36,679 nt of DNA from Flavobacteriaceae bacterium (GTDB taxonomy: Bacteria > Bacteroidota > Bacteroidia > Flavobacteriales > Flavobacteriaceae). The position numbers were made by a program, and so were the translations under genes. Shown here one piece after another: positions 1,059 to 10,975 of this stretch. Each line of letters starts with the position of its first letter. The stretch's first letter is position 1. Below the pieces are notes generated by a model, which searched no databases, had not been told where the DNA came from, and was given only the letters and a program-made list of their open reading frames with translations. The stretch is from assembly GCA_027081505.1 (NCBI GenBank), contig JALWKK010000095.1, positions 1 through 36,679 on the forward strand. The letters run 5' to 3'.

Positions 1059-1736
1059 TTACTCTGGTTTCTTTTTTTTTCTAAAATCGGTGTTAAAAAT
1101 AACAGCAAATTGTAGGTACCATTTTCCTGTATTTGAAACTTGTTGATGAAGCATACCGGTTTGTAACGAGGTGCTTTTGTTTATTTGGTAACCCAACGCT
1201 CCATAAAGTCTGTTTCGGTCAAAGAAAGAGCTTTTGTCGTTAATAAATATTTCATCATACAGTCCTATAAACCAAGTTTTTTCTTCTATTTTGGGTTTAT
1301 TTAATGGGATGAACAGCATTATCCTATACCTAAATCTATTTTTATATTCTTGATTTACCCACCGTTGTTCTGTACGGTAACGGTGTTCAAATTTTACTCT
1401 TCCTAAATGGTTGATAAGGATAAATTGTTGCCAAATACGATGTTCTTCACTTTCAGGTGCTTTAGGGATAGATTCATAGACATATGAAGGGATGTATGCA
1501 TAACCTGCTGTTACAAATGCTTTTTCAGAAAAATGATAGTTTAATCCTGTACGAAGTAACCATTGTTCGGTATTGTTAGGGAAGGTTGTATGGTTTCTAA
1601 ATTGTACTTCGGAATGAATACTTAGTTTGTTGCTTATTTTATTGGTTCCGAAGTACATTATCCAATTACCAATGTTATCTTGGGCATTGATAGTAATTGG
1701 TAAAAGGATAAATGTACAGAAGAGAATTTTTTTCAT
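1059..1736 (-). CDS. DUF2490 family outer-membrane/secreted protein
   Basis: This is a 225-residue protein when the start is put at MKKILFCTFILLPITINAQ, which is a clean signal peptide with a cleavage site after NAQ. A longer frame reaches 1763 but adds nine residues that overlap the upstream carbonic anhydrase gene, so I prefer 1736. The mature part is rich in alternating aromatic/polar residues and Arg/Tyr-rich strands (RFRYRIMLFIP, HRYRTEQRW) ending in a strand with Phe (LQFAVIFNTDF), as in DUF2490 proteins, which are thought to be beta-barrels of the outer membrane. The start lies 7 bp after the carbonic anhydrase stop, so the two are almost certainly co-transcribed. I infer an envelope role accompanying inorganic carbon uptake, perhaps a diffusion pore. 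No biochemical function is established for the family as far as I know. Confidence 0.8.
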   Translation of the reverse strand: MKKILFCTFILLPITINAQDNIGNWIMYFGTNKISNKLSIHSEVQFRNHTTFPNNTEQWLLRTGLNYHFSEKAFVTAGYAYIPSYVYESIPKAPESEEHRIWQQFILINHLGRVKFEHRYRTEQRWVNQEYKNRFRYRIMLFIPLNKPKIEEKTWFIGLYDEIFINDKSSFFDRNRLYGALGYQINKSTSLQTGMLHQQVSNTGKWYLQFAVIFNTDFRKKKKPE

Positions 1737-1743
1737 AATTAGG

Positions 1744-2370
1744 TTACCTGTTGGCTTCTTCAAAAAAGTCTACAGCTCCTGTAGAAACATCGTATATACC
1801 GCCTACTATTATAATCTCCCCGTTTTTTTCCATTTCGGACAGGATGGGGCTTTCGTTTCTAATTTGTTCAATAGAAAGGTTTACGTTTAATGTAGCTACT
1901 TCTTCTATTTGCATTTCGTTTAGTTCTTCTTGGTTTTTTGCAACTAAATCTACAGCAGGTTTTATTTTGTGTAGTAATGGGGTAATATTGCCCAGTTCAA
2001 CATGTTTGCAAGCAGATGTAACGGCACCGCATTTAGAGTGTCCCAGTACGACTACTATTTTGGATCCGGCAACTTTACACGCGTATTCCATAGATCCTAA
2101 TACATCTTCATTAATTATGTTTCCGGCTACACGAGAGCTAAAAACATCGCCGATGCCTTGGTCGAAAACCAACTCCACCGGAACTCGAGAGTCAATACAA
2201 CTGTGTATTACTGCAAATGGATATTGCCCTTTGCTGGTTTCTATAACTTGTTCTTTTAAATTGCGTTGTGCTTTTAAATTTTCTGTAAATCTTTTGTTGC
2301 CGTTTACTAAGATGGTAAAGGCATCTTGGGGTGAAATTTGGCTTTGTAGCTCTTTAGTTAATGTTTTCAT
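1744..2370 (-). CDS. Beta-carbonic anhydrase
   Basis: The 208-residue protein is of usual length for a bacterial beta-class enzyme, which interconverts CO2 and bicarbonate with a zinc ion. The zinc and catalytic residues are all visible: Cys58, Asp60 and Arg62 in the CxDSR motif, and His111 and Cys114 in HSKCGA. There is no signal peptide, so it acts in the cytoplasm. It is the second gene of a SulP permease, carbonic anhydrase, DUF2490 series. This placement suggests that bicarbonate brought in by the permease is its substrate or product. The 106-bp gap to the permease gene is long for a tight operon and contains two overlapping inverted repeats (2391-2454) that could form an RNA structure about 20 nt before the start codon. 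Assignment is certain at family level. Confidence 0.95.
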   Translation of the reverse strand: MKTLTKELQSQISPQDAFTILVNGNKRFTENLKAQRNLKEQVIETSKGQYPFAVIHSCIDSRVPVELVFDQGIGDVFSSRVAGNIINEDVLGSMEYACKVAGSKIVVVLGHSKCGAVTSACKHVELGNITPLLHKIKPAVDLVAKNQEELNEMQIEEVATLNVNLSIEQIRNESPILSEMEKNGEIIIVGGIYDVSTGAVDFFEEANR

Positions 2371-2476: not shown

Positions 2477-4078
2477 TTATTTTTTGTTGTTATTTCCGTT
2501 TGCCAATTTAAATCTTGGTGAGGGTTGTTCTTGTTTATCACTGTAAAGATCTATTACTTCTACTTCAATATTTCGGTTTTCTGCACTTATAATAAAATCT
2601 TCAATTATTTCTACAACATCGTGATGAATGAATTTTGTGTTTGTTGCATCTATTGTGACATGTGTGTCGTTAGGAATTTGATCTAATGCTTTTAATATAG
2701 AGGCTTTATTTAGGAAAGTTACATCTTCGGAAAGTACAATTTTAATGTTGTCTTTTCCTTTTAAGTTTTCTTTCTGCATTTTAAAAGGTACTTTAAAGTT
2801 GTTTCTTAATATGATGAATATGGCTACAATCATTCCCATAAAAATTCCCATTAGTAAATCGGTAAAAACAATACCTAAAATGGTAACTACAAATGGTATA
2901 AATTGGCCTAAGCCTTCGCGGTACATTTTTTTAAATAATGCGGGTTTGGCCAGCTTATATCCTACAACAAGCAAGACAGCAGCCAAAACGCCAAGTGGAA
3001 TCATGTTTAGTACTTTAGGTATTACAATGATACTTGTAAGCAATAAAAAGCCGTGAATAATAGTCGATGCTTTTGTTTTTCCTCCTGATTGAATGTTTGC
3101 TGAACTTCGTACAATAACCTGTGTTAGCGGAAGTCCTCCGGCAAATCCGGAAATTAAATTTCCAACACCTTGCGCTTTTAATTCTCTATTTGTAGGGGTT
3201 ACTCGTTTTAAGGGATCCAATTTGTCTGTTGCTTCAACGCAGAGAAGTGTTTCTAAACTTGCTACTACCGCAATTACTATGGCTGTTATATATACATCTT
3301 TATTTGATAATGCCGAAAAATCCGGACGGGTAAAGTTTCCTATAAAGTTATCAAAACTCTCCGGAATAGGTACTTTTACCATATGTTCTGCACTTACGGC
3401 AAGGTTTGGAATTGTGGCAAAAACAATTACTAATATTATTCCTACGATAACGGCTACCAGCGGTCCTTGAATAATTTTTGTAAATGAGAATCTTTTAAAA
3501 AATGGAGTTTCCCAAAGTATTAGTATTAATAATGACAGTAAAGAAATGATCAAGACGCCGGGGCTTATATTGCTTAACATATGTATTAATTCGTCAAAGG
3601 TATTATGCCCATCGACTTGCTGAAATCTAAAATCTCCTTCGGGATCTTTGTCGTAACCAAAAACGTGAGGAATTTGTTTTAAAAATATTATTACCCCTAT
3701 TCCTGCCAACATACCGTGAATTACTGAAGATGGGAAAAAATAAGCAATGATTCCGGCTCGTGCAAATCCCATAACAATTTGAAGAATACCGGCAATCATT
3801 ACCGAAACCAAAAATATTTCAAAACCTCCCAGATCCGATATAGCATTTAAAACGATTACTGCTAATCCGGCTGCGGGACCACTTACGCCTAAAGGAGAGC
3901 CGCTTAATGCTCCAACAACAATACCTCCTACTATTCCGGCTATTAAACCTGAAAACAGCGGAGCTCCGGAGGCTAAAGCAATACCTAAACATAACGGTAA
4001 TGCCACTAAAAACACTACAATACTTGCCGGGATATCATGTTTTAAATTTTTTAGGGGATGTAATTTTTTTGCACTCAT
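2477..4078 (-). CDS. SulP family anion permease (probable bicarbonate transporter) with degenerate STAS domain
   Basis: The 533-residue membrane protein starts at MSAKKLHPLKNLKHDIPAS. An in-frame ATG 45 bp upstream lies inside the promoter region and is less likely. It has the SulP core: an N-terminal hydrophobic block with the LVALPLCLGIALASG segment, the GPAAG turn and about a dozen membrane segments up to residue 430, followed by a soluble C-terminal STAS-like domain. The usual Asp-x-Ser-Gly of STAS domains is replaced by IHHDVVE, so the regulatory serine is missing. SulP proteins carry sulfate, dicarboxylates or bicarbonate. The gene downstream is a beta-carbonic anhydrase, a pairing known for bicarbonate carriers, so bicarbonate is the best guess. 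It is the first gene of its unit and its promoter overlaps a dyad shared with the TetR-SulP operon. Confidence 0.92.
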   Translation of the reverse strand: MSAKKLHPLKNLKHDIPASIVVFLVALPLCLGIALASGAPLFSGLIAGIVGGIVVGALSGSPLGVSGPAAGLAVIVLNAISDLGGFEIFLVSVMIAGILQIVMGFARAGIIAYFFPSSVIHGMLAGIGVIIFLKQIPHVFGYDKDPEGDFRFQQVDGHNTFDELIHMLSNISPGVLIISLLSLLILILWETPFFKRFSFTKIIQGPLVAVIVGIILVIVFATIPNLAVSAEHMVKVPIPESFDNFIGNFTRPDFSALSNKDVYITAIVIAVVASLETLLCVEATDKLDPLKRVTPTNRELKAQGVGNLISGFAGGLPLTQVIVRSSANIQSGGKTKASTIIHGFLLLTSIIVIPKVLNMIPLGVLAAVLLVVGYKLAKPALFKKMYREGLGQFIPFVVTILGIVFTDLLMGIFMGMIVAIFIILRNNFKVPFKMQKENLKGKDNIKIVLSEDVTFLNKASILKALDQIPNDTHVTIDATNTKFIHHDVVEIIEDFIISAENRNIEVEVIDLYSDKQEQPSPRFKLANGNNNKK

Positions 4079-4120
4079 CTTGGTTTTTTTTATTTGTTTT
4101 TTCTTAAATCTTACAGACTG

Positions 4121-4162
4121 CAAATATAATAGTATTACTATCGTTTTCGCAAGTAAAACAAC
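4121..4162 (-). promoter_or_regulatory. Promoter with overlapping TetR-type operator for SulP/carbonic anhydrase unit
   Basis: The minus strand carries TATATTTG (4128-4121), matching the Bacteroidota -7 box TAnnTTTG, with a TTG (4152-4150) 21 bp upstream. The space between is filled by the perfect 13-bp dyad ATAGTATTACTAT (4129-4141). The box 4122-4162 matches 7218-7258 at 35 of 41 positions. A start of transcription near 4113 would leave a leader of about 35 nt. Binding by the neighbouring TetR protein is inferred, not shown. Confidence 0.7.
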
Positions 4163-4674
4163 AAAATTTTACAGGGATATTGTCAATAAATTGATAGTCA
4201 GTTTGTTAAAATACTTGTTGTAGCTTATATGTTAAGTTGATTTACCATTTTTTGATACTACCTATTCAGGGTTTACCAGAGGTAATAAAATGAAACCGAA
4301 CTAAATATAATACCGAATACGAATTTAACCCGAAAAATTCGTGGAATTTTTAAACGACTATGTACTGCCAACAAATTTGTGCGTTTTGAAAGCACCCAAA
4401 TTTGGGGCATTTCTAAGTCGGGGTTTCCCGCATTTTCCCCTTTATCTATAGCATATTCATATAATTCACTCAGTTTTTATATGAATAATGCGGGTTATTA
4501 TAATTTAATTTCAAGTTCTCTCATTAAACTATTTTCATTCTGTAACGGCATTAACCAATCCAAAATATAAAATAGTTTTGGACTATTTTATATTAAGAAT
4601 AGGTATGATTTATAAGGTGCAGTTAAATTAAATTCGGGAGTCTAACAGTAAATACATTTTGTAGTATTATTAGG
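4163..4674. other. Palindrome-rich spacer between the two SulP units
   Basis: These 0.5 kb hold no gene I trust, but they are dense in inverted repeats. CGAATTT/AAATTCG lies at 4320-4326 and 4335-4341, and the palindrome CCCAAATTTGGG lies near 4395-4406. A bipartite hairpin pairs CCCGCATT (4427-4434) with AATGCGGG (4487-4494), and inside it ATTCATATAA (4455-4464) with TTATATGAAT (4477-4486). A 13-bp stem pairs 4564-4576 with 4582-4594. A 63-codon plus-strand frame at 4379-4570 runs across these structures, has no convincing start site and looks like noncoding DNA. The segment may be a remnant of a mobile element or a dispersed repeat. The last hairpin, 80 bp after the SulP stop, may end that transcript. 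Confidence 0.5.
4564..4594 (-). terminator. 13-bp perfect hairpin downstream of the TetR-SulP operon
   Basis: AATATAAAATAGT (4564-4576) and its exact complement (4582-4594) are separated by a 5-nt loop. The hairpin sits about 80 bp beyond the SulP stop codon on the minus strand. There is no strong T-run, and CCAAAA/TTTTGG (4560-4565, 4576-4581) offers an alternative pairing, so termination is a guess from position. Confidence 0.35.
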
Positions 4675-6516
4675 TTAGGTGCTAATTTTCAAATTTTTAC
4701 TAATCCAATTAATACAATCATCAAACGAGTTAAAAATTTGATCTTCATTAACCAAATCAGGAATGATATTAATTTTTTCCAACAAATATCTAGGTTGTTT
4801 GAGAATATTCACCAGAAGTATTTTTTTGTTTTGTTGTGCTAACTCTATCAGCGCATCTTCAAGCGCGTATAATCCGGACTGATCAATATATTGCATACGT
4901 CCCATTCTTATAATAACAACAGATGCTTCATCAGGGATTTGCTTTATTAATTGTTGAAAATCACTTGTTGAGCCGAAAAACAAGGGGCCTTTAATGTGTT
5001 TAATAAAAATTTTTCGTTTTAATTCATCGGGTAAATTTGCTTCATCTTCCCAAGCTTCTTCTTCGATTAAAGATTTTACATCTGAATGTTTTGTTGTTAA
5101 ATCGCCAATTTTTTTCATAAACATTAAAGAGGCTATTATTAAACCTACACCAACTGCATAAACCAAATTCCAAACAGACGAAAGTACCAAAACGATAAGC
5201 ATAATAGCTACTTCTGTTCGGGGTAAGTAAGGAATGGATTTTAATCCTTTATAATCCATTACGCCTATACCTACGGTTATTAAAATACCTGCTAGTACTG
5301 CGGCCGGTATTTTTGATGCAACAGGACCAAATGCTAACAAAATAAGGAGCAGTAGAACACTGGCAATCATGCCGGAAAGTTTTGTTTTTCCTCCGGCATT
5401 AATGTTTACTACGGTTCTTATTGTTGCTCCGGCACCCGGTATTCCTCCGAAAATGGCACCTATGCTATTTCCTATTCCTTGTCCTATGAGTTCTTTATTG
5501 GGTTTGTGTCTGGTTTTGGTCATGTTGTCTGCCACTACAGAGGTTAATAAGGAGTCTATTGCTCCGAGAAGTGCTAATGTAACCGCCGTGAAAATAAAAG
5601 GAGAGATGTTTCCAAAACTAAAGTCGGTAAAGATGGATAGGTTTGGTACGGGTAGTCCGCTGGGTATCTCTTCAATGGGTCTATAATTTAGCTTAAACAC
5701 AACGGCTATTAAAGACATTACCAGTAAAGCTACTAGTGTGCTGGGGATTTTAGTGGTAATTTTTTTAAAACCATAAATTATAAAAATAGTTCCCAGAGCC
5801 AGTAATAGCTCTAACCAATTAATATTTTGTAAAGCTCTCGGGAGTACTTTAATTGCGCCTATAACTCCGGATGCTTCTTTTCCGGCAAGAGTTTTTGATT
5901 CTTTAAGGATTTTTTCTTGAGTTATGTGTTTTGCTTTGTTAATGGTTTCTTTAAAATCTTCGATATCTAAAATATCTTCACCTACTTCTTTTTTTAGTAT
6001 ATTACTTAAAATTATTTCTTTGGCTTGTGGTTTAAATTGATTTACGTATGCCATATCTTCTTTAGGGTAATATCCGATAGAAGGAAGTATTTGTGTAACT
6101 AAAATAATAATGCCAATGGCTGTCATAAAACCGGAAACTACAGGATAAGGTATATATTTTATATATTTTCCCAGCCCTATAAAACCAAAAGCTATTTGCA
6201 TTATTCCGGCTAACAAAAAAACGGTTAATATTGCCGGTAATGCTTTTGAAACATCTCCTTCAAATGTTGCGATAATTCCGGTTATAACCAGCATACTCAC
6301 AGCGGTCATAGGTGCTGTTGGTCCTGAAATTTGAGTATTTGTTCCGCCAAATAGTGCTGCAAAGAAACCAACAAAAATAGCACCATATAATCCGGCACTA
6401 GGACCTAATCCGGAACTTACACCAAATGCTAAAGCTAAAGGTAAGGCTACAATTCCTGCAGTAATACCTCCAAATAAATCGTTCTTAAAGTATTTGAAGT
6501 TGAATAAGTTTTTCAT
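4675..6516 (-). CDS. SulP family anion permease with intact STAS domain
   Basis: The 613-residue protein starts MKNLFNFKYFKNDLFGG and has the SulP N-terminus (GITAGIVALPLALAFGVSSG), the ISGPTAP turn near residue 65 and about twelve membrane segments. A polar, Lys/Glu-rich insertion of about 55 residues sits near residues 165-220, longer than in the other permease of this window. The STAS domain covers roughly 513-605 and contains YIDQSGLYAL, with Asp545 and Ser547 in the position that is phosphorylated in many STAS proteins. The gene begins 15 bp after the TetR-type gene and shares its operator-controlled promoter. The substrate is probably bicarbonate or another small anion, judging from the shared control with the SulP/carbonic anhydrase unit, but sulfate or a dicarboxylate cannot be excluded. 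Confidence 0.92.
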   Translation of the reverse strand: MKNLFNFKYFKNDLFGGITAGIVALPLALAFGVSSGLGPSAGLYGAIFVGFFAALFGGTNTQISGPTAPMTAVSMLVITGIIATFEGDVSKALPAILTVFLLAGIMQIAFGFIGLGKYIKYIPYPVVSGFMTAIGIIILVTQILPSIGYYPKEDMAYVNQFKPQAKEIILSNILKKEVGEDILDIEDFKETINKAKHITQEKILKESKTLAGKEASGVIGAIKVLPRALQNINWLELLLALGTIFIIYGFKKITTKIPSTLVALLVMSLIAVVFKLNYRPIEEIPSGLPVPNLSIFTDFSFGNISPFIFTAVTLALLGAIDSLLTSVVADNMTKTRHKPNKELIGQGIGNSIGAIFGGIPGAGATIRTVVNINAGGKTKLSGMIASVLLLLILLAFGPVASKIPAAVLAGILITVGIGVMDYKGLKSIPYLPRTEVAIMLIVLVLSSVWNLVYAVGVGLIIASLMFMKKIGDLTTKHSDVKSLIEEEAWEDEANLPDELKRKIFIKHIKGPLFFGSTSDFQQLIKQIPDEASVVIIRMGRMQYIDQSGLYALEDALIELAQQNKKILLVNILKQPRYLLEKINIIPDLVNEDQIFNSFDDCINWISKNLKIST

Positions 6517-6531
6517 AGTGGTTTGTTATGA

Positions 6532-7197
6532 CTATTTTAAAAAATTAAAAACTAATTGTTTGTAAAAAGAAGTAATAGAACTTTTATCACTAACATCGGT
6601 TAACGAAGAGATGTGTTCAGAAAAGTATTTTTGTTGGTGAGAACCTTCAATTACAGTAGATATTAACATTCTGGGATACTTAAAATCAGGTTTTATTTCT
6701 AGCACCATACCGCTTACACGTTGTACTACTTTTTCATATGCCTTAAAGCAACCCCTGCTATTTTCTTCATCTACTTTATTGGTATGAAATACTTTTATAG
6801 ATTCTGAAAAAATAATTTCACTTAACAAGACTTCATTTATATAGCTAAAATTATTATCAACTAATACGGGTTTGGTAAGTAGGTCGATTGCTATTTCTAA
6901 TCTTTTTTCGGCAGAGGACACATTGGTGGTTGCTAGAACTAATCGATACTCCATCCAAGACCAATACCAACTGGTTAAGTAAACAAGTAAATTATGTTTG
7001 CTTTTAAAATACCTGTAAATAGAGCTTTCCGGTGATTGTATGGCGTTGCCTAATTTTTTAAAAGTAAAATCTTCAAACCCCATTTGGCTTATCATCTCTA
7101 TACTTTTAGAGAGGATGGTTTTGCCAAGATTTGAAGAATCAGGGTTTTTTGAATATAATTCGGGACTTACTTCTATTTTTATTTCAAGAGAATCCAT
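6532..7197 (-). CDS. TetR/AcrR family transcriptional regulator
   Basis: The 221-residue protein has a TetR-type helix-turn-helix near residues 24-72, recognisable from the spacing around TILSKSIEMISQMGFEDFT, FKKLGNAI and SSIYRYFKSKHNLLVYL. The remaining 150 residues are a helical ligand/dimer domain with no recognisable pocket signature. Its own start lies only about 14 bp from a 41-bp dyad (7211-7251), so it should repress itself. The SulP gene follows after 15 bp in the same direction, and a near-copy of the box stands in front of the SulP-carbonic anhydrase unit. The regulator is therefore likely to respond to a signal tied to inorganic carbon or pH. The ligand is unknown. Confidence 0.88.
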   Translation of the reverse strand: MDSLEIKIEVSPELYSKNPDSSNLGKTILSKSIEMISQMGFEDFTFKKLGNAIQSPESSIYRYFKSKHNLLVYLTSWYWSWMEYRLVLATTNVSSAEKRLEIAIDLLTKPVLVDNNFSYINEVLLSEIIFSESIKVFHTNKVDEENSRGCFKAYEKVVQRVSGMVLEIKPDFKYPRMLISTVIEGSHQQKYFSEHISSLTDVSDKSSITSFYKQLVFNFLK

Positions 7198-7210
7198 AAA
7201 ATTCGATTAA

Positions 7211-7258
7211 CGCTTGTAAATATAATAGTAATACTATTGTAATCGCAAGCGAAACAAC
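7211..7258 (-). promoter_or_regulatory. Promoter with extended TetR-type operator for the tetR-SulP operon
   Basis: A dyad is centred on 7231. The core AATAGTA-A-TACTATT (7224-7238) is perfect, and the outer arms CGCTTG (7211-7216) and CAAGCG (7246-7251) are also perfect, for 41 bp in all. The minus strand reads TATATTTA at 7224-7217, a near match to the TAnnTTTG -7 box, so a bound dimer would cover the promoter. The leader would be only about 10-15 nt. The match to 4122-4162 is 35 of 41. Confidence 0.7.
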
Positions 7259-7464: not shown

Positions 7465-8661
7465 ATGAAAAAATATCTTTTTCTTGTAGTATTAACTGTG
7501 GGTATGTCTGTTAATTCACAAGATATTGTTAAGACTAAGTTTGGTAAAGGACTAATTAATGTTATTGCAAAAGACAGCTCTTTTAGTTTAAAGTTTGATA
7601 CCAGATTTCAATTTCTCTCAACAAACCGGTGGGATAACAATGGTTCAAATTACGGTAAGCCATTATCCGATATTTTGATAAGAAGAGCAAGATTAAAGTT
7701 TGGTGGTTTTGCTTATACTCCAAAGCTTAAATATAAAATTGAGCTTGGTTTAAGCAACAGAGATGTTTCGGGAGCTTCTGTTTATACTTCCAATGCTCCG
7801 CGTTATATTTTGGATGCAGTAGTCAAATGGAATTTTTACAAAAATTTCGTGCTATGGGCTGGACAAACTAAGTTACCCGGTAACAGAGAGCGTGTTATAT
7901 CGTCTGCAAACCTTCAAATGGTAGATCGATCGTTGCTAAATAAAAAATTTAATATCGACCGAGATGTGGGTTTTCAAATTTGGCATCATTTTAAAATTAA
8001 TGATAAATTTTTGGTTAGAGAAGTATTTGCTTTTTCGCAAGGAGAAGGCAGAAATGTTACTTCCGGAAATTTGGGAGGGCATCAATACACCGGACGAATA
8101 GAAATGCTGCCGTTTGGTAATTTTTCCGGCAAAGGGGATTATAGCGGTGGAGATTTAAAGCGAGAAAGCACACCTAAGTTTTCATTGGGTATTACTTATG
8201 ATTATAACAATAATGCTGTTAAAACCCGAAGCAATATGGGAAATTATATGGAAAATGATGAAGGATTTTATCAAACAAACATTACTACCTTTTTTATTGA
8301 TGCTATGTTTAAGTACAAAGGGTTTTCTTTTATGGGCGAATTTGCTTCAAGAGAAGCAGAGGATCCGCTGGCAAAAAACTCAGACGGAACATTAACAGGA
8401 GATGTTGTTGAGGTAGGGAAATCGTTAAATCTGCAATCGGGGTATAATTTTAAAAATAATTGGGAAATTTCGGGGCGTTTTACAACAATCGATTGGGATA
8501 AAGCCATAATACTAAAAGATGTAACCAACCAATATACCTTAGGAATTTCTAAATATATTGTAGGACATAAATTAAAGGTTCAAAGTGATATTAGTTATAC
8601 TACGGAAGGAGGAAATGCTTCCGGAATTTTATACAGATTACAATTTGAAATTCAATTTTAA
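7465..8661 (+). CDS. Phosphate-selective porin O/P family outer-membrane protein
   Basis: This 398-residue protein starts MKKYLFLVVLTVGMSVNSQ, a signal peptide with cleavage after NSQ. It continues with porin-like strands: FDTRFQFLSTNRW, LIRRARLKFGGF, YKIELGLSNRD, FVLWAGQTKLPGNRERV, KFNIDRDVGFQIWHHF, and a C-terminal strand LYRLQFEIQF ending in Phe. The RRARLKFGG and GQTKLPGNRER segments are typical of the OprO/OprP (porin_O_P) family, whose members form outer-membrane channels for phosphate or polyphosphate. The length fits. A Pit-type phosphate permease follows after 73 bp, and a candidate Pho box lies upstream, so the pair probably forms a two-membrane phosphate uptake route. Family members can also accept other anions, so specificity is inferred from the neighbour. 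Confidence 0.88.
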   Translation: MKKYLFLVVLTVGMSVNSQDIVKTKFGKGLINVIAKDSSFSLKFDTRFQFLSTNRWDNNGSNYGKPLSDILIRRARLKFGGFAYTPKLKYKIELGLSNRDVSGASVYTSNAPRYILDAVVKWNFYKNFVLWAGQTKLPGNRERVISSANLQMVDRSLLNKKFNIDRDVGFQIWHHFKINDKFLVREVFAFSQGEGRNVTSGNLGGHQYTGRIEMLPFGNFSGKGDYSGGDLKRESTPKFSLGITYDYNNNAVKTRSNMGNYMENDEGFYQTNITTFFIDAMFKYKGFSFMGEFASREAEDPLAKNSDGTLTGDVVEVGKSLNLQSGYNFKNNWEISGRFTTIDWDKAIILKDVTNQYTLGISKYIVGHKLKVQSDISYTTEGGNASGILYRLQFEIQF

Positions 8662-8691
8662 AAACATAACGATTTCGTAACAAACAATTAA

Positions 8692-8715
8692 AAAACAAAA
8701 CTTAAGTTTGTTTTA
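8692..8715 (+). promoter_or_regulatory. Intercistronic hairpin between porin and Pit permease genes
   Basis: AACAAAACTT and AAGTTTGTT can pair around CTTAAG with one bulged A, followed by T residues. It lies in the 73-bp gap and could stabilise the porin message or attenuate into the permease gene. The structure is AT-rich and weak. Confidence 0.3.
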
Positions 8716-8734
8716 GTAAAAAATGAATTAAACT

Positions 8735-10975
8735 ATGGATAATATTTATATTTTAATGATTGTTGCTTTAGCAATTTTGGCTATAGCCGATTTAGTTGTA
8801 GGAGTTAGTAACGATGCCGTAAACTTCTTAAATTCTGCTTTTGGCACAAAAGCAATTTCTTTTAAAACTATATTGGTAGTTGCAAGCATCGGTGTAGCAG
8901 TTGGAGCACTCACTTCCAGCGGAATGATGGAAGTTGCTAGAAAAGGTATTTTTAATCCGGGCGAATTTTATTTTAACGAAATTATGATAATTTTTATGGC
9001 GGTGATGATTACCGATATTCTACTGTTAGACTTTTTCAATACGTTAGGAATGCCTACATCGACAACTGTTTCGATTGTGTTTGAATTACTTGGAGCAGCC
9101 GTTGCAATGTCACTCATTAAAATAAGCGCTTCAAACGGAAGTCTTTTTGATTTAACAAACTATATAAATACAGAAAAAGCTTCATTAATTATCTTTGGGA
9201 TTTTGTTATCTGTAATTGTGGCGTTCTCGGTAGGCGCTATTATTCAGTACATATCCAGATCATTACTGTCTTTTAGATTTGAAGAAAAACCCAAATGGGT
9301 AGCAGCCCTTTTTGGAGGTATTGCCGCAACTGCCATTACGTATTTTATTCTTTTAAAAGGATTAAAAGGAGCCGGGTTTGTGCCTGGTGATTTTAAAAAT
9401 TGGGTGATGGCAAATACACTTACTATTGTTGGGGTGAGTTTTGTTTTTTGGATATTATTTTCGAGTTTGCTTACTTACGTATTTAAGGTTAACGTCTATA
9501 AATTTATTATTATAATAGGTACATTTGCTATTGCATTGGCTTTTGCAGGAAATGATTTGGTTAATTTTATAGGCGTACCCATAGGCGCCTGGCAAGCCTA
9601 CCAAAACTGGCAAGTATCCGGAGTTGCGGCAGATACATTCCGAATGACGGCAATGGCAAGTAAACAACACGCACCTACTTTATTATTATTGCTTGCCGGA
9701 GTTATTATGATAATCACATTATGGACATCAAAAAAAGCACGAGCAGTTTTAAAAACATCTATCGATTTATCCAGCCAAGACGACGTGAAAGAACGCTTTG
9801 AACCCAACTGGTTATCTCGGTCAATTGTGAGAGGATCTATACTTATTTCTAAATATATCGCAACAATTATACCTTTTAGTTTGCAAGAAAGAATCGATAA
9901 ACAATTCTTAATGCCGGCGACCATACAGACCAAAACCATTAACAACGAGAAACCTGCTTTTGATATGGTACGAGCGGCTGTTAATCTTATGGTGGCTAGT
10001 ATACTAATTTCTATTGCAACATCATATAAATTGCCACTATCAACAACCTATGTTACCTTCATGGTAGCAATGGGTACCTCACTGGCAGATAGAGCTTGGG
10101 GAAGCGAAAGTGCTGTATATCGAGTTGCAGGAGTTTTAAATGTAATAGGAGGTTGGTTTTTTACTGCTTTAAGTGCTTTTACAGCAGCCGGTATTATCGC
10201 TTATTTAATTTATTTGGGAGGTGCAGCTATGATTGCCGTATTGCTCTTGTTAGTCATTTTAATAGTAATAAGAAATTATATTAAGCATAAAAACAAGGGA
10301 AAATCCATAGACCCTTCTGCTCTTAAAAAAACAGAAAGCAAGACCGTACAAGGCATTATTCAGGAAAGTGCAACCCATATTTCGACTGTGGTTTCCAGAA
10401 CCAATAAAATATATACCAATATGCTTAAAGGTCTTGCTAAGCAAGATTTAAAAAGCCTTAAAAAAAGTAGAAAAGGAGTCGAAAAATTAAACAGCGAAAT
10501 TGATGAATTAAGAGATGATATATTTTATTTTATTAAAAATCTAGATGAAACCAGTGTGCGAGGGAGTAATTTTTATATTATTATTTTAAGCTACCTTCAA
10601 GATATGGCACAATCATTAGATTTTCTATCTAAAGCCAGTTATAAACACATTAATAATAATCATAAAAAATTACGTTTTAGTCAAATTAAAGACCTGCAAG
10701 AAATAGACCAATCATTGAGTGAGTTATTAAATGATATTGAAATTATATTTAAAAACAGAGAATTTGAAAAAATAGGAAATGTTTTGGTGCGTAAACAAAA
10801 AGCCTTCGATTATTTGGCAATGAAAATTGATAAACAAATTAATCGTACACGTACCGAAGAGTCTAGCCCTAAAAACACCACGCTTTATTTTAGCTTGTTA
10901 ATGGAAACCAAAGATTTAATTACTGCTATTATGAATTTAATGGAAGAGTATTATAATAGTTACAAGAAGAAGTAA
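8735..10975 (+). CDS. Inorganic phosphate transporter (Pit/PiT family) with C-terminal DUF47/PhoU-like domain
   Basis: The 746-residue protein is far longer than a simple Pit permease of about 500 residues. The first 510 residues carry the duplicated PiT signatures: VVGVSNDAVNFLNSA near residue 22, with the TSTTVSIVFELLGAAVA segment, and AGNDLVNFIGVPIGAW near 272, with the LPLSTTYVTFMVAMGTSLADRAWG segment. Membrane segments run to about residue 515. The remaining 230 residues are hydrophilic and helical (THISTVVSRTNKIYTNMLKGL, SEIDELRDDIFYFIKNLDET) and resemble DUF47/PhoU-like proteins, which are usually encoded separately beside pit genes. The permease probably imports phosphate by proton or sodium symport, with a built-in cytoplasmic regulatory domain. 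It is the second gene after the porin. Confidence 0.92.
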   Translation: MDNIYILMIVALAILAIADLVVGVSNDAVNFLNSAFGTKAISFKTILVVASIGVAVGALTSSGMMEVARKGIFNPGEFYFNEIMIIFMAVMITDILLLDFFNTLGMPTSTTVSIVFELLGAAVAMSLIKISASNGSLFDLTNYINTEKASLIIFGILLSVIVAFSVGAIIQYISRSLLSFRFEEKPKWVAALFGGIAATAITYFILLKGLKGAGFVPGDFKNWVMANTLTIVGVSFVFWILFSSLLTYVFKVNVYKFIIIIGTFAIALAFAGNDLVNFIGVPIGAWQAYQNWQVSGVAADTFRMTAMASKQHAPTLLLLLAGVIMIITLWTSKKARAVLKTSIDLSSQDDVKERFEPNWLSRSIVRGSILISKYIATIIPFSLQERIDKQFLMPATIQTKTINNEKPAFDMVRAAVNLMVASILISIATSYKLPLSTTYVTFMVAMGTSLADRAWGSESAVYRVAGVLNVIGGWFFTALSAFTAAGIIAYLIYLGGAAMIAVLLLLVILIVIRNYIKHKNKGKSIDPSALKKTESKTVQGIIQESATHISTVVSRTNKIYTNMLKGLAKQDLKSLKKSRKGVEKLNSEIDELRDDIFYFIKNLDETSVRGSNFYIIILSYLQDMAQSLDFLSKASYKHINNNHKKLRFSQIKDLQEIDQSLSELLNDIEIIFKNREFEKIGNVLVRKQKAFDYLAMKIDKQINRTRTEESSPKNTTLYFSLLMETKDLITAIMNLMEEYYNSYKKK

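Follow-up and report, generated by a model that had tools for sequence, protein, structure and literature searches.

TetR, QacR and AcrR are autoregulated TetR-family repressors of efflux genes, the regulators of cyanobacterial inorganic-carbon uptake CcmR and CmpR are LysR-type proteins of phototrophs, and SulP permeases are known as neighbours or fusion partners of carbonic anhydrases in other bacteria. Here we analyse a locus of a Flavobacteriaceae bacterium (GenBank assembly GCA_027081505.1) that can be compared with all of these. It encodes a TetR-family regulator (its gene is called tetR below) with a SulP permease (SulP2), and a second SulP permease (SulP1) with a β-carbonic anhydrase (CA) and a DUF2490 protein, and the same 13-bp dyad, ATAGTA-N-TACTAT, precedes both groups of genes. 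The stretch analysed ("the window", 36,679 nucleotides) is one entire contig (JALWKK010000095.1) of a host assembly of 2,120,988 bases that is 78.8% complete. The sites, their placement in promoters, their co-occurrence with tetR and the genes linked to them argue that a ligand-responsive TetR-family repressor quite probably binds this shared operator and governs tetR-SulP2 and SulP1-CA-DUF2490 as bicarbonate-type units.

The regulator resembles TetR, QacR and AcrR in its N-terminal helix-turn-helix (HTH), its all-helical fold and the palindrome in its own promoter, and in most of its relatives an exporter is adjacent; it differs from them in that its cargo includes SulP-CA units, in that the operator is found at distant loci too, and in that the structural matches listed are 10–19% identical to it. 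Control of bicarbonate transporters would be a likeness to CcmR and CmpR, but these belong to a family unrelated to that of TetR. As in the known SulP-CA pairs, a SulP gene lies beside a β-CA gene; unlike them, the pair here is joined by a DUF2490 protein and has a conserved TetR operator in common with an exporter. The cyanobacterial SulP-type Na+/bicarbonate symporter BicA (NCBIfam model NF050096, structure 6ki1) aligns with SulP2 over most of its membrane part and shares with it six residues and a STAS domain, but SulP2 is not cyanobacterial, scores 418 bits against an equivalog cut-off of 880, and lies under a TetR-type regulator. Finally, the cassette that accompanies the regulator in relatives has ABC, HlyD and OEP components like those of type I secretion (ABC-HlyD-TolC). 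In the one example scored (L099) these fall below the type I model cut-offs (ABC 170 of 693, HlyD 98 of 209 and TolC 22 of 225 bits), and, unlike in type I secretion, its ABC protein matches the LssB model from position 138 onward only, and so without the N-terminal part of that model.

Two operators in promoters of the window

The initial annotation had pointed to two similar boxes, each between a TTG and a second short box ahead of a minus-strand unit, and the letters of the window bear this out. Read on the minus strand, the boxes at 4122–4162 and 7218–7258 are identical at 35 of 41 bases, and the dyad is exact at 4129–4141 and 7225–7237. These are the only two exact copies in the whole host assembly, for which a first-order Markov model made from the window gives a chance expectation of 0.17 (0.003 for the window). 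Each dyad, read on the minus strand, touches a -7 element (TATATTTG at 4128–4121 and TATATTTA at 7224–7217), and a TTG at -33 (4152–4150 and 7248–7246) stands 21 bp upstream of the -7 element, with the dyad filling this spacer. The Bacteroidetes -7 consensus is TAnnTTTG, and by that consensus we take the TTG, the 21-bp spacer and the TATATTTG or TATATTTA element to be a Bacteroidetes-type promoter at both sites. Operator 1 (4121..4152, minus strand) lies within the promoter of SulP1 (2477..4078), CA (1744..2370) and the DUF2490 gene (1059..1736), of which SulP1 is the first gene behind it; operator 2 (7217..7248, minus strand) lies within that of tetR (6532..7197, 221 amino acids) and SulP2 (4675..6516), which begins 15 bp 3' of tetR and is presumably in the same operon. 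All five genes are on the minus strand.

Other candidate sites were rejected. Twelve one-mismatch dyads are present elsewhere in the host assembly; all were inspected, 10 fall within reading frames and no copy adjoins a TAnnTTTG/A element, so none was accepted as a further operator. A genome scan at two mismatches was discarded, with 200 matches per strand in the assembly against 205 for the reversed pattern; in the window this tolerance gives 3 matches against 2.69 expected, and the motif is uninformative there. The second box had also been proposed to carry an extended 41-bp dyad with CGCTTG/CAAGCG arms. The arms are present (7211–7216 and 7246–7251, the right one overlapping the -33 TTG), but in only 2 of 49 operator-promoter sites (loci L112–L191) do the arms pair at 5 or all 6 positions, and we do not retain the longer dyad as a functional unit. 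The idea that a remnant of a small peptide gene lies between SulP2 and SulP1 was likewise dropped, since no such peptide is encoded in the three minus-strand frames of 4101–4720.

Conservation of the operator with its regulator

A profile from an alignment of 20 regulators confirmed at least 573 relatives of the tetR product. Of the 80 named loci among the matches listed, 78 have at least 150 bp upstream of tetR and were used; two were excluded as too short. The best dyad within these 150 bp has no mismatch in 62 of the 78, one in 9, two in 5 and four in 2 (at most one mismatch in 71 and at most two in 76), against 1 of 290 control genes of the same loci with at most one mismatch and none with an exact dyad (Fisher p ~1e-66). 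The reversed pattern does no better than 2 mismatches in any of the 78 regions. Conservation of the motif upstream of tetR orthologues, which had been set beforehand as a test, is thus what is found, and the proposal that the second box is tetR's own promoter stands for the window and, as to the dyad, across the relatives. In the 71 regions chosen for at most one mismatch, a choice that favours the dyad, 12 of its 13 positions carry 1.7–2.0 bits and are directly followed by a conserved TATaTTTG; the exception outside dyad and -7 element is a single T two bases ahead of the dyad (1.4 bits), the remaining positions having about 0.1–1.2 bits.

The operator also follows the regulator in a family sample of 199 genomes from 198 genera, of which 128 carry tetR at a threshold of E ≤1e-40 (four genomes with only weak HTH matches were dropped). 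We counted 93 distinct sites of a strict operator-promoter pattern, spread over 84 of the 199 genomes, against 3 matches for the reversed pattern. The strict pattern is found in 83 of the 128 tetR-bearing genomes and 1 of the 71 without tetR (p ~1e-21), where the sole site (L073) falls inside a reading frame. In an order-wide sample of 395 genomes, some of them also in the family sample, there are 56 distinct sites in 54 genomes, and 54 of these 56 sites adjoin tetR or its usual partners (in L247–L249 tetR is on the opposite strand), against 2 matches for the reversed pattern.

One could suppose that a strong Bacteroidetes promoter, with some chance resemblance added, accounts for most of the shared box, and that no regulator binds there. 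The box does include -33 and -7 elements, which by themselves inflate the 35/41 match, and once two mismatches are allowed the motif does not rise above chance in either window or assembly. It is the dyad bases, however, and not just the promoter bases, that are nearly invariant upstream of tetR in the selected regions above, and the motif tracks the presence of tetR in family genomes; promoter plus chance is already contradicted by this and is highly improbable. Because the dyad is kept upstream of tetR, co-occurs with it and is not matched by reversed-pattern controls, the pairing of regulator and operator is well supported, and conservation supports the view that the operator belongs to this tetR and that tetR lies under it. 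It likewise supports the assignment of SulP2, SulP1, CA and DUF2490 to a predicted regulon, as the genes behind the only two promoter-placed operators of the host assembly.

In the mechanism that we favour, a dimer of the regulator would occupy ATAGTA-N-TACTAT at two places, one of them the spacer of the tetR promoter, where it would lie against the -7 element. By keeping RNA polymerase out, the bound dimer would repress both tetR itself and the second unit until a small ligand released it, upon which tetR-SulP2 and SulP1-CA-DUF2490 should rise together. Some promoters of relatives (L018, L019 and L307) have a second, weaker dyad, ATAGTTAAACTAT, 21–22 bp upstream of the main one, which suggests two regulator dimers at those sites.

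Genes under the operator across the family

Of the 128 tetR genes in the family sample, 103 have an ABC exporter and 16 have SulP1 at a distance of no more than 5 kb; one or the other is near 117. The remaining 11 loci have SulP2 (G003, G016, G020 and G088, with CA too in the three whose flank is complete), CA (G033 and G127), CA-DUF2490 (G134) or a broken SulP1 followed by CA-DUF2490 (G099), while in G032, G129 and G158 none of exporter, SulP, CA or DUF2490 is beside tetR in the stretches fetched. Of the 93 distinct family sites 83 adjoin tetR. Among the 10 away from it, five precede an ABC-HlyD-TolC exporter, three precede carbon-type genes (small peptide-SulP1-CA-SulP2 in G026, SulP1-CA-DUF2490 behind operator 1 of the host genome, G000, and DUF2490-CA in G171), and two are without related genes (G174:C31 and G113). 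In these linkage counts site and gene coordinates were transferred by hand, overlapping matches on two strands were merged by hand, and genes were labelled by blastp against a few seed proteins. In G026 tetR is beside an exporter and the operator-small peptide-SulP1-CA-SulP2 group is on a separate contig, which would be control in trans. Nine exporters of tetR-bearing genomes are unlinked to tetR; six have an exact upstream dyad and one a dyad with one mismatch.

Since the exporter is the main partner in the family, the regulator is not in general a dedicated inorganic-carbon regulator, as the initial annotation had suggested; that role is too narrow. Judging from the placement of the sites, the same regulator and operator control the exporter in most relatives, instead of or besides carbon-type genes. 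The 79%-complete host assembly has no close exporter copy (best 24% identity), so the known host regulon consists, as far as that incomplete assembly goes, of the carbon-type unit only. The carbon-type arrangement is recurrent: L296, L297 and L300 each have an exact site between tetR and a divergent SulP1-CA, and tetR stands back to back with SulP2 in L301 and with CA-DUF2490 in L302.

Several counts weigh against a common regulon of this kind. No strict operator-promoter pattern is present in 45 of the 128 tetR-bearing genomes (in the named set most inexact sites are off by one or two bases), and two of the nine tetR-unlinked exporters (G002 and G127) have no dyad within one mismatch. SulP1 (threshold E ≤1e-80) is present in 136 of the 199 family genomes, 107 of them tetR-bearing, yet in only 16 is it near tetR. 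In the 600 bp upstream of the best 30 of 139 SulP1 matches the dyad is exact in 3 (the window, L267 with divergent tetR, and L274), has one mismatch in 3 and is missing in 24. In the host itself, the 9 kb around two further SulP genes on contig C54 contain no copy of the operator within one mismatch, so not every host SulP is in the regulon. With so few SulP1 genes near tetR or under the operator, control of SulP1 is a feature of some lineages, though a recurrent one. The single regulon first proposed for both SulP permeases, CA and the DUF2490 protein is supported in the host, where the only two promoter-placed copies of the operator precede these genes; elsewhere SulP1 is, in most of the copies looked at, without the operator.

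Regulator, cargo exchange and signal

The tetR product has an N-terminal HTH (Pfam TetR_N, PF00440, 29.9 bits, cut-off 24) and is predicted by AlphaFold2 to have an all-helical TetR fold (mean predicted local distance difference test score 91). TetR-type regulators head its Foldseek matches (E 3e-4 at best, TM about 0.5–0.6), its NCBIfam matches are weak (FadR 21.7 and AcuR 18.7 bits), and sequence, fold and Protein Data Bank comparisons gave generic TetR matches only. Its nearest named relatives, among the matches listed, are mostly from Flavobacteriaceae metagenome-assembled genomes (MAGs).

We pooled 147 distinct TetR proteins from three samples, not a random draw; carbon-type cargo accompanies 67 of them, an exporter another 67 and both 4, and for 9 neither lies within range. 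On a tree of these, which comes from a quick search and leaves 59 of 144 inner branches open, cargo switched between carbon-type and exporter at least 16 times, and the strongly supported branches force 7 changes of each label. The labels are clustered: the carbon group needs 20 changes, where shuffled labels need 48.5. The window regulator is in a strongly supported group of 18 of which 17 have carbon cargo. The two cargo groups have 27 positions at least 95% identical in both, including, outside the HTH, Trp77, Tyr78, Trp79, Leu125, Glu132, Lys135, Asn146, Gly149, Tyr154 and His195, and at no position among the pooled regulators does each group favour a residue of its own at 70% or more.

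These relationships bear on a rival view, in which the regulator serves first of all to repress export or stress genes and responds to a toxic or secreted compound as its ligand. SulP and CA would then have come under it in some lineages for a different reason, for example membrane or pH stress, rather than for an inorganic-carbon response. A TetR regulator next to an efflux pump is often a sensor of a substrate of that pump, the family counts favour the exporter over SulP1, the strict site is found in none of the five tetR-less genomes that have the exporter, and the Foldseek matches include QacR, at low similarity. On the other hand, inorganic-carbon cargo recurs in separate branches, including the divergent tetR/SulP1-CA loci with an exact site, and the number of switches, forced ones among them, argues for more than a single capture. 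We regard a primary role in export or stress as a serious possibility, though one that falls short of being probable.

A shared signal is plausible given the repeated exchange of cargoes and the absence of cargo-specific residues from the regulators, and a common ligand for both cargo types is the simplest inference. A bolder version can be put forward tentatively: one Flavobacteriales-wide TetR regulator, with a single signal tied to inorganic carbon or pH, may drive through the 13-bp operator two exchangeable modules, SulP-CA-DUF2490 and the ABC-HlyD-TolC exporter, which a small PPPE membrane protein of one type often accompanies. The strongly conserved residues, also in the ligand domain, are common to the regulators of both modules, so that homeostasis of carbon or pH would, on this version, form one response together with export. 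Among named marine relatives, Patiriisocius marinus (L147) has the two modules, while Kordia algicida (L125) and a Dokdonia strain (cf. L138) have one.

The small proteins just mentioned, of about 100–115 amino acids, are encoded beside tetR, SulP1 or the ABC gene (L124–L158 and L068–L103) and have a hydrophobic stretch at the N-terminus, an acidic centre and a PPPE or PPP tail at the C-terminus; PPP is in the last 45 residues of 51 of 61 small reading frames at these positions, some of the loci being duplicates. They accompany SulP1 as well as the exporter, and gave no Pfam match (three tested) and no NCBIfam match (one tested).

Transport functions

SulP2 looks, from its sequence, like a bicarbonate transporter. 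Its best NCBIfam model and its best solved relative are both BicA, and it has a C-terminal STAS domain (PF01740, 46.5 bits). It keeps all six of the residues that the review PMC13249358 gives for bicarbonate and sodium in BicA (Thr69, Asp258, Thr262, Gly300, Ala301 and Thr302, read by hand off the 6ki1 alignment, in which the chain numbering is shifted by one). SulP1 keeps none of the six (alignment read by hand), Asp258 being replaced by Glu, and bicarbonate is for that reason less likely to be its substrate. Cys-x-Asp-x-Arg and His-x2-Cys form the β-class carbonic anhydrase motif, and the CA of the window has both (alignment to 2a5v; Pro_CA, PF00484, 137 bits), with no signal peptide obvious by eye; a carbonic anhydrase is usually the next gene after SulP in tetR-linked loci.

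SulP1 and SulP2 might alternatively carry sulfate or another anion, the CA serving local pH and bicarbonate uptake not being the function. This draws on the absence of every BicA residue from SulP1 and on the score of SulP2, which is below the cut-off of the BicA model. The choice of BicA as best model for SulP2, the full set of substrate and sodium residues in that protein, and the regular position of CA behind SulP speak the other way, and we consider transport of a different anion rather unlikely. On the bicarbonate reading, SulP2 would act like BicA as a Na+/bicarbonate symporter, and the two units would bring bicarbonate into the cell and interconvert it with CO2. They may also pass anions through the outer membrane (the DUF2490 protein has an apparent signal peptide by eye and is perhaps an outer-membrane protein), and the bicarbonate could be used in carboxylation reactions or, an equal possibility, for pH balance. 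No phosphoenolpyruvate carboxylase turned up in the 79%-complete host assembly, which weighs against the favoured reading. A rhodopsin search of the same assembly gave no match, nor did its control queries.

Neighbouring genes and other loci

A gene for an AI-2E-family transporter, truncated by the contig end (1..996, minus strand), lies 62 bp beyond the DUF2490 gene; it may be the last gene of the SulP1-CA-DUF2490 unit. Genes for a Porin_O_P protein and a PHO4-type transporter (7465–10975, plus strand) are divergent from tetR, and their control by operator 2 is doubtful since the porin start is about 230 bp from it. The two SulP-like genes of C54 are in tandem and encode 571 and 577 amino acids (L328:2103-5620).

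Among relatives, L257:2064-4148 has the operator, then genes for a leucine-rich-repeat-like protein and a TerC-like membrane protein (both assigned by eye), then tetR-ABC-HlyD-TolC. SulP1 units with and without the operator are repeatedly found behind a gene of 252–254 amino acids (L068, L269, L270, L285, L288, L313 and L314), itself behind one of about 590–600 amino acids where the stretch is long enough, an order that appears to resemble the Bat aerotolerance operon. At L096:10110-11634 SulP1 is split into several frames beside an intact tetR and is followed by a tetR fragment, CA and DUF2490; the broken SulP1 is decay or an assembly error in that MAG. The flavobacterial-type locus also occurs on contigs labelled as Gammaproteobacteria (or its families), Rhodobacteraceae or Thermodesulfobacteriota MAGs (L116, L117, L118, L122, L129, L133 and L166), which are probably misbinned.

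Implications

We found no description of this TetR-operator regulon in the open-access literature searched, which was covered in part and through the beginnings of abstracts. It is apparently undescribed as a regulon broader than an inorganic-carbon response, of which the carbon role would be one face. We know of no account of how heterotrophic marine Bacteroidetes switch inorganic-carbon uptake. That such bacteria fix bicarbonate by anaplerotic enzymes is indicated for Polaribacter MED152, in work cited in PMC3587595. The switching can now be tested, since the regulator and its 13-bp operator are defined and the list of genes is short, and the tie to a conserved exporter is an unexpected clue to the signal. 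If both modules do answer to a shared signal of that kind, control of carbon or pH and export by this route would belong to a single, previously unrecognised physiological response.

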